Source: Octadecabacter antarcticus 307
GTDB lineage: Bacteria > Pseudomonadota > Alphaproteobacteria > Rhodobacterales > Rhodobacteraceae
DNA length: 64,000 nucleotides
Assembly (NCBI RefSeq): GCF_000155675.2
Contig: NC_020911.1
Coordinates: 1,602,501-1,666,500, forward strand
Direction of reading: 5' to 3'
Shown one piece after another: positions 35,111 to 39,978 of this stretch. Numbering within the stretch: the stretch's first letter is position 1; the number at the start of each line of letters is the position of its first letter. The notes beneath the pieces were generated by a model. It saw nothing but the letters and a program-made list of their open reading frames with translations. It ran no database searches and was not told where the DNA came from. A program made the translations under genes and the position numbers.

Positions 35111-35151
35111 CCCTCTCGTGACATCGCTTTGCGATTCACTGCCGGGCAATG
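35111..35151 (+). repeat. Hairpin element e1 (in IS481 transposase)
   Basis: CCCTCTC, then a stem GTG-A-CATCGC / GCGATT-CAC around TTT with a bulged A (one C-T mismatch), then TGCCGGGCAATG. It interrupts codons for YLFVAI and DRTSK; removing 40 of the 41 bases restores the frame. Opposite in orientation to the coding strand. Confidence 0.8.
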
Positions 35152-35327
35152 AATGGCAACAAAGAGATAAAGTTTTCCTTCGTTGGTGCGCAACTCTGCA
35201 ATGTCGATATGAAAATATCCGATCGGATAGCGTTTGAACTTTTGTCGTTTCGGCTTGTCACCCTCCATATCTGGCAGTCGGGATATCCCATGCCGTTGCA
35301 AACAACGATGCAGGGAAGATCGCGTCC

Positions 35328-35367
35328 CCCTCTCATTGCTTGCTCCGCAAGCAACTGCCGGGCAATG
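35328..35367 (+). repeat. Hairpin element e2 (in IS481 transposase)
   Basis: CCCTCTCA, perfect 8-bp stem TTGCTTGC / GCAAGCAA with TCC loop, then CTGCCGGGCAATG. It lies between codons for TIPH and TRSSLHR; taking out exactly 40 bases leaves one codon and the right frame. Opposite to the coding strand. Right flank GAT. Confidence 0.82.
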
Positions 35368-35655
35368 GATGTGGGATAGTTGGCTGCAAGGCATAAAGAC
35401 AATCATCCAGCGGTAGGAGCGTATGACGTCGAAAAGAGACGATCATCGCCTCTTCCCCGCGCTGAGAACGGTCGAACTGGGGTCCGTGGGGCCAGTCTTG
35501 CGGTCTTCTACAGTTTTGCGCTTGCGCCATTTGGAGACCGTTTTGACATTTATACCAAGTTCTCGACTCAAAGCTGCGGTCGTAGCTTGCGATCGCTGTA
35601 TTGTTGCTCTGATGGCGTGCGTAGTCGTGGCGCAGCCATGACGTATTTGTCCCAC

Positions 35656-36140
35656 ATAATGCTTCCTTCCATTCCAAAGAATAGATCGCGCCATCAAACC
35701 ATGGGATCAAAAACCTAGGGGAGGCTTTTGCTCGCCGGGTTGCACCGCACCCGCAAGTACTTTTGCGCCTAGCCGCTGGCATCGAGGGGGGCGTGTAGGG
35801 GTTCGTTCGGCCTGCGGGCCTCAGCAGGAATGGTCCCACTTCGGTCAGTCGGTGATGTAACTAAGTTATCATTCTGATGGCCTTCCGTATTTGCCTCGGC
35901 GAGGTCTTGATGGAACTGTTGCGTTAATTTTGGCTGAGCGAGTGCGATTGTTTTCATACTCCGGAGGCAAAAAGATTCCTGACACTGACGGTTTTCCCGT
36001 CAACGCCCGCCTGTCTACTCGCCTGGATGACAGCTTGTATCATCGGCGTCGTCGCGACTTGGCTAGGGAGACGAATAAGCATCAGAGCCTCCCGTTTGGA
36101 TTTTTCTTAAAATGAATAATTTTCATAAGCAGCGCAGAAT
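35656..36140. other. Unassigned stretch between IS481 and IS5
   Basis: 485 bases. A short open stretch (35891-36115) encodes a basic peptide (VALILAERVRLFSYSGGKKI) I cannot assign. It probably contains the IS481 left end and older fragments. No intact gene or RNA is seen. Confidence 0.35.
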
Positions 36141-36207
36141 GGCTTTGTTGCACAAATAGTCTCGTATCAGGGATTCATGTTGTAAATCCAGCATGGTAGC
36201 TGGCGTC

Positions 36208-37179
36208 ATGAGTAAACCTATCGCCCCGATTTACCGCACGAGGAACTGGCCTGAGTATAACAAGGCCCTGAAGCGACGCGGGTCACTGACCATTTGGTTT
36301 AACCCAGAGGTCACTTGGAAAGCTGCGCCTACCGTTGCCCGGCAGTGGTTTGTTTGCAAACCATGAGAGGGGGGCAAACGGGGCCGCCAGCCACGCTATA
36401 GCGACGCGGCGATCCAAGCCTGTCTCACGTTGAAAGTGCTGTTCGGAATGCCTTTGAGGCAGGCGACGGGCTTTGTGGAAAGCCTGTTGAAATTGATCGA
36501 CCTTGACTGGGAGGTCCCAGACTTCAGCACGTTATGTCGGCGTCAGAAAAGGCTATCGGTTACCATCCCGTATCAGGGCTCAAAGGGCCCGCTAAACCTC
36601 CTTATCGACAGTACCGGCATCAAAGTTGAGGGCGAAGGTGAGTGGAACGCTCGCAAGCATGGCGGGCCGAAACGTCGGGTGTGGCGCAAGATACATATAG
36701 GGATTGATGAAGAAACGTTGGAGATACGCGCGGTCGAAGTGACGAGTAGCAGCATTGGAGACCCACCCATGTTGCCCAACCTTCTCGGTCAGATCACACC
36801 AGATCAGAAGATTGGCAGTGTCACAGCAGATGGGGCATATGACACCCGCAAATGCCATGATGCGATTGCGGCCCGCAATGCCCGTGCTGTCATCCCGCCA
36901 CGCAAGAATGCCAAGCTATGGAAGCCGGATACGCTGGGGGCCAGAGCCCGAAACGAAGCGGTACAGTCCTCAAAGGATCTCGGCCGCGCTCAATGGCGTC
37001 GCTTGAGCGGATACCACCGCAGGAGTCGTGTTGAGACAAAGATGCATTGTTTGAAACTACTCGGGCAGCGCCTGGCCGCACGAGACTTTGACCGGCAAGT
37101 TGCGGAAGTCCAAATCCGTGCCGCGATACTCAACGGCTTCACCGCCCTTGGCATCCCAAACACCGTTACTGTAGGCTGA
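36208..37179 (+). pseudogene. IS5-family transposase interrupted only by one hairpin element
   Basis: ATG 36208 starts MSKPIAPIYRTRNWPEYNKA; 42 codons run to KAAPT. Hairpin element e3 follows (39 nt, 13 codons in frame with one TGA). The gene then resumes at GKRGRQPRYSDAAIQACLTL and runs to 37179. Without e3 the product would be 310 residues, a normal length. DDE features are present: IDSTGIKVEGEGEW, TADGAYDTRKCHDA, HRRSRVETKMHCLK. No other stop or shift is seen, so e3 alone breaks it, unless the ribosome or a nuclease deals with e3. Confidence 0.88.
36333..36371 (-). repeat. Hairpin element e3 (in IS5 transposase)
   Basis: Read on the minus strand: CCCTCTCA, stem TGGTTTG / CAAACCA (7 bp) around a 4-base loop, CTGCCGGGCAACG. 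Removal of exactly 39 bases joins CCT AC and G GGC AAA, coding P-T-G-K as expected. Opposite to the coding strand. In frame it adds one TGA. Confidence 0.85.
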
Positions 37180-37233
37180 ATCCGTCAGGGGTCAGGGGAA
37201 GCACGCCATAAGGGCGATTTGTGCAACAAAGCC

Positions 37234-38801: not shown

Positions 38802-39148
38802 TTGCGAAACGGGCGGTCGAGCTCCGCCTGTGCAAAATACGCCGACGCCTTACGCAAAATCTCATTGGCTTGACGCAGTTCGCGGTTCTCACGCTCAAGT
38901 TCCTTGATCCGCGCCTTCTCAGCGCTGGTAGGCTCTGGCCGTTCGCCGCCATCGCGCTGGACCTGACGGGCCCAAACGCGAAGGCTGTCCGGTGAACAAC
39001 CCAATTTACCCGCGATCGCCGTCAGCGCCGCAGCTTCGCTCTGATATTCATCGCGGTGTTCCATAAGCAGCCGAACCGCACGCTCGCGGAACTCAGGTGA
39101 ATACGGCTTCGAGGTCTTCTTCTTTTGTGTCTGTTCCATAACGGGCAA
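38798..39148 (-). CDS. IS3 transposase OrfA
   Basis: Helix-turn-helix part of an IS3 transposase, 116 residues (or 113 from MEQTQKKKTSKPYSPEFRER). HTH in YQSEAAALTAIAGKLGCSPD and a leucine-zipper-like tail KARIKELERENRELRQANEI. Its stop overlaps the orfB start (ATGA), the usual place for the programmed minus-one frameshift that makes OrfAB. Intact. Confidence 0.9.
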   Translation of the reverse strand: MPVMEQTQKKKTSKPYSPEFRERAVRLLMEHRDEYQSEAAALTAIAGKLGCSPDSLRVWARQVQRDGGERPEPTSAEKARIKELERENRELRQANEILRKASAYFAQAELDRPFRK

Positions 39149-39477
39149 TTCTCCGAGAGTTTTGCCCTCCGGTAAAGCCGGGCCGGTTCATTCTCGATAG
39201 ATAATCACGTTCCTCGGGATCATCTGCTGCGATCCATTGAGCGGTTTGTCGACCTGTCTGGCATCCGTCAATATTTCGCCGTTTGTTACAGCCATACTGG
39301 TCGCTGTCCTTTGATCCAGAACTGCTGATCCGAATGCTGCTGGTTGGCTGCTGCCTCGGCATTCGGTCCGAACATCGCCTCTGCGAAGAGGTGCATCTGA
39401 ACCTTGCTTACCGCTGGTTCTGCGGACTGGATCTGAGCGACAATGTGCCCAACCACTCAACCTTTTCCAAAAGCCGC

Positions 39478-39516
39478 CCCTCTCATGGCGCAAGCGCAAA
39501 CGACTGCCGGGCAATG
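39478..39516 (+). repeat. Hairpin element e7 (in IS1182 gene, at a deletion junction)
   Basis: CCCTCTCATG, a weak stem built on GCGC / GCGC, then ACTGCCGGGCAATG. Unlike the others it joins two distant parts of the transposase (STFSKSR and DVEATRSIRQ), where family members have about a hundred residues in between. Right flank GAT. Confidence 0.7.
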
Positions 39517-39621
39517 GATGTTGAGGCCACGCGGTCGATCCGTCAGGCCGAAGTCGGGTCCGTGCGCACGATGCAGGGATGGTTAGTGGATCGTGGCATC
39601 GCGCCGCACATCCCGGTCATT

Positions 39622-39659
39622 CACTGCCTAGGATGTGCAGGTTCACATGCACGAGAGGG
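39622..39659 (-). repeat. Hairpin element e8 (in IS1182 gene)
   Basis: Minus strand: CCCTCTCGTGC, stem ATGTGA / T-G-CACAT with one bulge, tail CCTAGGCAGTG, the most diverged tail. Exact removal of 38 bases joins ATT and GAT AAG, coding IPVIDKAGRTDG as expected. Opposite to coding. Confidence 0.75.
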
Positions 39660-39941
39660 GATAAGGCTGGCCGCACCGATGGCACCCTGAGCCGCGCTAA
39701 TTTTGAGTGGGACCCGTAGGGCGACAAGTACATCTGCCCAGAAAGTCAGTCGCTCAAGCAGTTCCGCCGCAACTATTCCGATCCCAGTCGAGGCCCAACC
39801 ACGACGGGCAGGACAAAATATCGTGGGCCTAAACTGATCTGTCAGGCCTGCCCATCCAAAGCCAAATGCTGCCCGAATACCGATGTTCGCAAGATCACCC
39901 GCGACGAACACGAAGACGCACGTCAAGTTGCCCGCGACACC

Positions 39942-39978
39942 GACTGCCCAGCGGTGCATGTTTACATGCATGAGAGGG
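39942..39978 (-). repeat. Hairpin element e9 (in IS1182 gene)
   Basis: Minus strand: CCCTCTCA, 6-bp stem TGCATG / CATGCA around TAAA, then CCGCTGGGCAGTC. Exact removal of 37 bases joins GAC ACC and GCC AAA, coding ARDTAKIKQYAVS as expected. Opposite to coding. Confidence 0.78.

Follow-up and report, generated by a model that had tools for sequence, protein, structure and literature searches.

Hairpin inserts of 36–45 nucleotides in transposase genes of Octadecabacter antarcticus 307: probable members of a REP-like family of non-autonomous mobile elements

The 64,000-nucleotide stretch of Octadecabacter antarcticus 307 analysed here (contig NC_020911.1, positions 1,602,501 to 1,666,500; referred to as the window) contains nine hairpin inserts of 37–43 nucleotides (nt), all of them inside a block rich in insertion sequences (IS) at 35.1–40.0 kb. 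The element to which they belong measures 36–45 nt overall and is composed of a head (CCCTCTC), a stem-loop of variable sequence and a tail (CTGCCGGGCARTG). The favoured reading, to which we assign a probability of about 75%, is that they belong to a new REP-like family, non-autonomous mobile hairpins that an enzyme encoded elsewhere would move. If it is correct, few mobile DNAs would be smaller than these inserts, in which the ends are fixed and the core is kept by its shape alone. An earlier note on this DNA had listed the nine copies in both orientations and proposed, as one of their possible meanings, a tiny non-autonomous mobile element that prefers transposases. All nine were located in the present analysis, and that meaning is now supported by single IS that occur both with and without the insert, by independent insertions at the same bond, and by residence in unrelated IS families and in many genera.

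Occurrence, fold and repeated insertion of the hairpins

The genome (4,875,481 bases in two contigs) contains 154 copies of the strict head-loop-tail pattern, 82 forward and 72 reverse, against none of the reversed control pattern. The search of the full genome and of related genomes that had been suggested with the earlier note showed strict copies in about a quarter of the genomes sampled from this large family (98 of 394 Rhodobacteraceae, own genome included) and in 8 of the 19 genomes of the genus. In a class-wide sample of 190 genomes, strict copies were present in two, both from the three Rhodobacteraceae of that sample, and in none of the 187 genomes from other families of the class. 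At least 120 matching stretches were found in named genome contigs, and the matches listed belong mostly to Rhodobacterales, with few outside this order (Vreelandella, Cohaesibacter); nine matching stretches lie on viral-labelled contigs. The gammaproteobacterium Vreelandella neptunia has two copies on one contig (L038 and L093), which probably arrived through transfer of IS elements.

Head and tail are set by the search pattern, so that members with other ends would escape it; the head was found just upstream of 347 of the 355 tails. The lengths of 158 de-duplicated inserts include 41 nt (65 inserts), 37 nt (27), 43 nt (22) and 38 nt (13), and are divisible by three in 20. Two classes of stem can be distinguished, one in which an A bulges out after the third pair from the base and one without this bulge, and an A occupies the unpaired position after three pairs in 46 of 54 41-mers, 14 of 23 43-mers and 5 of 6 45-mers. 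Stems were aligned for 30 of the 54 distinct 41-mers (A1) and 25 of the 29 distinct 37-mers (A2). Pairing is retained in 95.6% of the 270 cells of A1, which has 56 two-sided changes, and in 89.5% of the 200 cells of A2, which has 51. The covariation score of these stems was reached by none of 500 shuffles and is abolished by shifting the partner strand; the count of pairs with two-sided change, taken alone, shows no excess over shuffles. The stem sequence diverges between subfamilies while pairing is preserved. In neither alignment does the tail repeat the head in inverted form, and no terminal inverted repeats are seen. The tail is able to form a second small hairpin, which is uninformative because the tail is fixed by the search pattern. 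A separate class of 44–45 nt is found at L014, L016, L071, L073, L113, L116 and L142, with no IS gene recognised at the two loci scanned (L014 and L016) and, at several loci, extra hairpins alongside or a partly common right flank (GATGCGCGG); this class may be an older composite repeat.

One IS5 of a single genome gave 20 matches, 10 of them copies with a recognised site, of which 8 are filled (one belonging to a more distant lineage) and 2 are empty, with the same bases at the join; single-base differences among the copies do not separate the filled from the empty ones. A ninth filled copy of this IS5 turned up in a separate comparison. In the own genome, two IS5 copies with flanks 98.75% identical contain unrelated hairpins at the same bond, which indicates that the hairpins move, and an identical hairpin type is present at unrelated IS sites. 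Among 61 same-site pairs, whose loci were assigned by hand to different genomes, the similarity between hairpins is below 0.6 in 30. The same bond has been entered more than once, i.e. insertion is repeated.

The inserts could instead be ancient parts of the IS, inherited by descent and evolving through compensated changes, as the covariation of the stems and the greater likeness of same-site hairpins relative to random pairs would allow. For the recent cases this is contradicted by the unrelated hairpins at one bond and by insert-free copies at flank identities up to 100%, whose existence indicates that the inserts are not ancestral to all homologous IS copies. Identical hairpins also occur in flanks differing by 20–22%, the hairpin changing more slowly than the gene around it. 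Inheritance by descent may hold for some old pairs and is improbable as an account of the family.

The mode of insertion was determined on a set of 225 distinct flank pairs, two of which (L099, from Planctomicrobium, and L153) resemble chance matches without a stem. For 129 of them an insert-free DNA counterpart is available, and the net shift at the join is 0 in 76, +1 in 26, −1 in 8 and larger in 19; many of the +1 joins fit one head C common to head and target. No target duplication was seen in these 129 joins, and in most of them the element has been inserted as one unit, without duplication or loss of target. Clean excision, exact or within one base, had been described for most of the window copies in the earlier note; here it was examined over the set as a whole rather than copy by copy, and it applies to these 129 joins apart from the 19 with larger shifts. 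An insert-free protein homolog spans the join at 163 of the 225 sites, with a clear strand in 133, where the gene lies on the strand of the head in 77 and on the opposite one in 56. Frame was judged by homology, excluding self-matches that contain the insert, open reading frame (ORF) length alone being too noisy in this GC-rich DNA.

A closer inspection of the joins showed a weak target, C/GATGR (the stroke marks the join), with frequencies of 0.77 for the C before the join and 0.72, 0.74, 0.61 and 0.66 for the G, A, T and G after it. In leave-one-out scoring of 178 sites, the used position has a median rank of 13 among about 1159 nearby positions, being ranked first in 26 sites and within the best 60 in 147. 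Of 50 joins that fall between two codons of a gene on the same strand, 36 are directly followed by an Asp codon, a preference that the weak target helps to explain; some of these Asp motifs are presumably catalytic. The filled and empty sites constitute a large natural set, usable for deriving the enzyme and its target rule.

Residence in insertion sequences and fate of the interrupted genes

Of the 66 distinct sites sampled in the own genome, 61 fall in repeated DNA, which represents 23% of the 1,058,350 bases covered (about a fifth of the genome); the sampled stretches were picked for containing inserts, and the significance of this figure is only indicative. A count by gene neighbourhood provides a less biased check. 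Among 15 genes of each kind in the own genome, the tail motif occurs at a distance of no more than about 1.5 kb from 10 Y1 genes, 6 IS1595 genes and no ABC-transporter gene, and strict inserts within the same distance of 6, 3 and none, respectively.

Domain scans agree with this distribution. Thirty of the 72 distinct insert-free homologs were scanned and 26 have transposase or IS-type domains, 23 of them over the curated cut-off (those under it are at L137, L162 and L166, and some homologs show the HTH part only). The domains comprise rve, HTH_21, DDE_Tnp_1 and relatives, DUF772, DDE_3, IS240, Transposase_mut, IstB, Y2_Tnp and HTH_Tnp_1; the other four homologs gave no domain, and no non-IS kind appeared among the thirty besides ATPase models overlapping IstB. 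About ten IS families have been entered, including the HUH-type IS91 and the helper ATPase of IS21, under family names that we take from the Pfam domains or from the earlier note. At 15 sampled sites of other genomes left without assignment, an IS domain was found in 6 (L086 just below cut-off). Ten ORFs at such sites of the own genome gave IS-type domains in five (one weak), a phage integrase in one and nothing in four. The own genome also shows 24 IS1595 matches, in which the matched part is nearly always free of stops. At L190:15950–16546, three inserts in one common orientation lie within 600 bases of an apparently IS21-type element. The genome description of O. antarcticus 307 gives 626 transposable-element genes, of which 265 are pseudogenes (PMC3646047). 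Hairpin insertion may be part of the cause of the high load of broken transposases in this genome.

This residence would also be expected if a host or plasmid defence system deliberately put the hairpin into transposase genes and silenced the IS, a meaning that the earlier note had offered in the form of a scar of an anti-transposon system. The striking of about ten families would fit it, as would joins that recur in front of Asp codons, some of them presumably catalytic. The weak target, however, ranks the used sites near the top and alone favours Asp codons, and IS DNA is dispensable and multiplying, so that surviving inserts would gather there regardless. The gene of the multi-copy IS1595 is free of inserts at the 15 loci seen, some copies of the hairpin lie where no IS gene was recognised, and neither positive evidence nor a gene of such a system was found. 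Deliberate silencing is at long odds. In a bolder version, a novel single-strand or RNA-guided system would seek transposase genes throughout the Rhodobacteraceae and place there shape-recognised hairpins, about 40 nt long and free in stem sequence, which would act as a brake across the whole family and make passengers of autonomous IS; this is likewise unlikely, if rather less so.

The consequences of insertion can be followed in an IS3 of 1385 bp in genome G013, present in six copies that are 98.6–99.9% identical. Four inserts, two per orientation, were mapped in one copy and one of them was confirmed by pattern in all six; the alignment over the whole IS is free of gaps, and all six copies consequently carry the four inserts. 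A search of G013 with 478 IS bases gave the six copies and four matches of 40–42 bases coinciding with one insert, and no insert-free copy. Once the four inserts are removed in silico, a single open frame of 308 codons appears. Coding differences among the six number 12 at the 865 nonsynonymous sites and 3 at the 260 synonymous ones, some of them being common to two copies. This variation is neutral, as expected for genes no longer selected, and suggests that the broken genes are mobilised in trans and not that the inserts are skipped. Among the insert-bearing copies compared, this IS3 gave no sign of purifying selection, and other pairs gave a mixed picture.

Skipping of the insert, by removal from the mRNA or by ribosomes hopping over it so that the transposase stays functional, had been another of the meanings offered in the earlier note. 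It would account for the restoration of frame on removal, for the multiple copies of insert-bearing IS (12 of the IS481-type; the six of the G013 IS3, none insert-free) and for the low ratio of nonsynonymous to synonymous change (dN/dS) between some insert-bearing copies. It is disfavoured by the occurrence of both orientations, even inside one gene, by lengths seldom a multiple of three, by the G013 IS3 with no sign of purifying selection and by near-identical copies with unrelated hairpins at the same site, and we consider it highly improbable. For the multiple copies, transposase supplied in trans would be the simplest cause. The mobile hairpin enters mostly the genes of other mobile elements; it probably breaks these and then travels with them. 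In this scenario the insert would end the function of the transposase gene entered, and the broken IS would persist and be spread by transposases that other copies provide in trans, also between species, which would help to explain the finding of survivors in IS elements.

Candidate enzyme and relation to known palindromes

Several observations weigh against a mobile hairpin served by a separately encoded enzyme. No mobilising gene was found in the genomes searched; Y1_Tnp (PF01797) was not found in 15 of 20 insert-bearing genomes, and two Y1 groups examined in the own genome have ends unlike those of the insert. The inserts show no replichore strand bias, a signal that IS movement would blur. 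Same-site hairpins reach a similarity of 0.8 or more in 18 of the 61 pairs as opposed to 6.8% of random pairs, and some of them may be old shared insertions. At nine of the 15 sampled unassigned sites in other genomes, neither of the two ORFs tried has an IS domain, no tail lies inside the matched part of the IS1595 gene in the 15 loci, and the gathering in IS could be partly survival rather than targeting. The neutral variation of the G013 IS3 is supporting and not final, given that working IS copies too vary neutrally on tip branches. Finally, dN/dS is 0.03–0.06 among four IS1182-type copies that share one hairpin at one site; this hairpin is 39 nt long, in frame and free of stops. IS1182-type copies at L160:9707, L182:10601, L186 (17.1 kb) and L207 (10.5 kb) are mosaics, their mutual identity shifting sharply at the insert (e.g. 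99% on the left and 86% on the right), as if crossovers occurred at or within it. On account of these mosaics we take the low dN/dS to reflect divergence that preceded the insertion, or recombination; conceivably, this 39-nt in-frame insert is tolerated by a functional gene.

The earlier note had proposed looking for a gene whose ends match head and tail. No larger autonomous element with the same ends was seen in about 2.0 Mb, nor any larger element in the eight stretches around the tails without a near head; at L116, no mobile gene is apparent in the ORFs of the DNA between two copies, on which no family scan was made. Y1_Tnp occurs in 5 of the 20 insert-bearing genomes against 0 of 20 insert-free ones. 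The own genome (G000) has 24 Y1_Tnp matches, compared with 0–2 in each of 39 other genomes checked, and the Y1 copies inspected there, together with one of G007, appear IS200-like. A Y1 transposase was rejected as the partner, most bearers being without Y1 and the two groups examined having different ends; the proximity of inserts to Y1 genes (10 of 15, as against 6 of 15 for IS1595) is read as clustering of IS. A reverse transcriptase was also discarded, with 9 of 20 bearing and 7 of 20 free genomes and hence no link.

Among the closest known systems are the REP, which RAYT/TnpAREP enzymes of the HUH type mobilise. REP are palindromes of 20–50 nt with bulged and perfect classes and are described as presumably non-autonomous (PMC8266576, PMC3733652), both classes being handled by TnpAREP (PMC8266576). 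The inserts are likewise short palindromes, perfect or bulged, and seemingly non-autonomous. They differ from REP in lacking a GTAG or CGTC tetranucleotide at their ends (in A1 and A2, with ends fixed by the search pattern) and in having no recognised RAYT-type gene. REP are mostly intergenic, whereas the inserts are often inside transposase genes (at 133 of the 225 sites a confident insert-free protein homolog spans the join). Both REP and the Rickettsia palindromic elements (RPE) are known as palindromes of small size that can lie inside genes (PMC3733652). With the tag absent and Y1 not found in most bearers, membership of REP/RAYT fails and likeness of mechanism alone stands.

A small element that breaks transposase genes already has a precedent in RUP of pneumococcus, which is non-autonomous, occurs in more than six IS families, inactivates transposase genes and has been suggested as possibly limiting transposases (PMC2229807). 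The inserts resemble RUP in sitting in transposase genes of several IS families. RUP has 107 bp, terminal inverted repeats resembling those of IS630-Spn1 and a TA target (PMC2229807); the inserts have 36–45 nt and, unlike RUP and miniature inverted-repeat transposable elements, neither terminal inverted repeats nor target duplication. RPE measure 105–146 bp and are fused in frame within host protein genes (PMC2229807). The inserts share with them the palindrome placed within a gene, but are mostly frame-breaking and in IS genes. With derivatives of IS200/IS605 they have in common the lack of duplication and the short preferred target adjoining, but no autonomous copy with the same ends was seen and the IS200-like copies examined end differently. 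The IS200/IS605 family has a fixed target, and the preference of the insert is weaker. In mitochondrial byp elements and T4 gene 60, too, the frame is restored once a short inserted hairpin is taken out, as with the present hairpins; the latter differ in occurring in both orientations and in a host gene that varies neutrally in the one IS3 tested. Neither Rfam (window positions 34500–40300, E up to 1) nor a limited literature search, which does not establish absence from print, gave a description of the insert sequence, in accordance with the earlier note, whose reader knew of no such family; a named family beyond the sources searched is possible.

On the preferred reading of a mobile hairpin, the enzyme would be encoded elsewhere, would recognise the hairpin as a folded single strand, and would cut and join it with no duplication, in the manner of HUH (Y1) enzymes or other recombinases of folded strands. 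That a single strand is involved is a tentative guess from the anatomy, and the enzyme is possibly of HUH type; what likens it to the HUH enzymes of IS200/IS605 and REP is that the target is not duplicated, that shape is recognised and that a short target is preferred.

The nine copies of the window

The positions and hosts of the nine copies are given in Table 1. Five are on the + strand and four on the − strand; the head is exact in eight and the tail in five. Tail matches with at most one mismatch number 7 in the window against 0.28 expected, with seven attained in none of 100 shuffles. The earlier note had seen none in the host genes of the window, and in agreement with it the head and tail pattern scans gave no further copy in the rest of the window. 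Copy e7 comes from one scan and was not listed by a second one with stricter stem filters.

Table 1. Hairpin inserts of the window (positions counted from its first base; IS families of e3, e5, e6, e8 and e9 as in the earlier note).
Copy	Position	Strand	Length (nt)	Host	Remarks
e1	35111..35151	+	41	IS481-type transposase gene	gene on −
e2	35328..35367	+	40	same IS481-type gene as e1
e3	36333..36371	−	39	IS5-type copy	one tail change
e4	37397..37434	+	38	second IS5-type transposase	directly before Asp codon of DRGYD motif
e5	37537..37577	+	41	same second IS5-type gene as e4	one head change
e6	38407..38449	−	43	IS3-type copy	one tail change
e7	39478..39516	+	39	IS1182-type transposase
e8	39622..39659	−		same IS1182-type copy as e7	tail decayed, 4 changes
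e9	39942..39978	−		same IS1182-type copy as e7	tail decayed, 3 changes

The residence of the nine in several IS families, as claimed in the earlier note, is borne out by insert-free comparison for e1, e2, e4 and e7, either directly or through copies identical to these; for the other five, head, stem and tail were checked here. An insert-free homolog spans the join of e1 (identical copy at L162/L200), and DNA and protein comparison gave one for the identical copy of e2 at L162/L171. Copy e1 was found in all 12 chromosomal IS481-type copies that match the whole 173-base query and is missing from a copy of 87% identity that the other contig carries. The site of e2 is filled in the same 12 of 12 copies, one filling being too altered for the e2 pattern. 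The Asp following e4 we take to be the second catalytic Asp of the second IS5-type transposase. The left flank of e7 is 85–87% identical to two IS1182-type copies at the same place (identical copies L176/L182).

The IS5-type copy with e3 is flanked by inverted repeats (36141–36157 and 37217–37233), and a lone head (GAGAGGG) lies beside its right end at 37236–37242, as if the IS end had cut through an insert. The IS3-type copy with e6 has its ends at 37811–37836 and 39165–39190 and includes the sole Rfam match of the 34500–40300 region, an ALIL pseudoknot at 38727–38843, in line with the programmed frameshifting expected of such an element.

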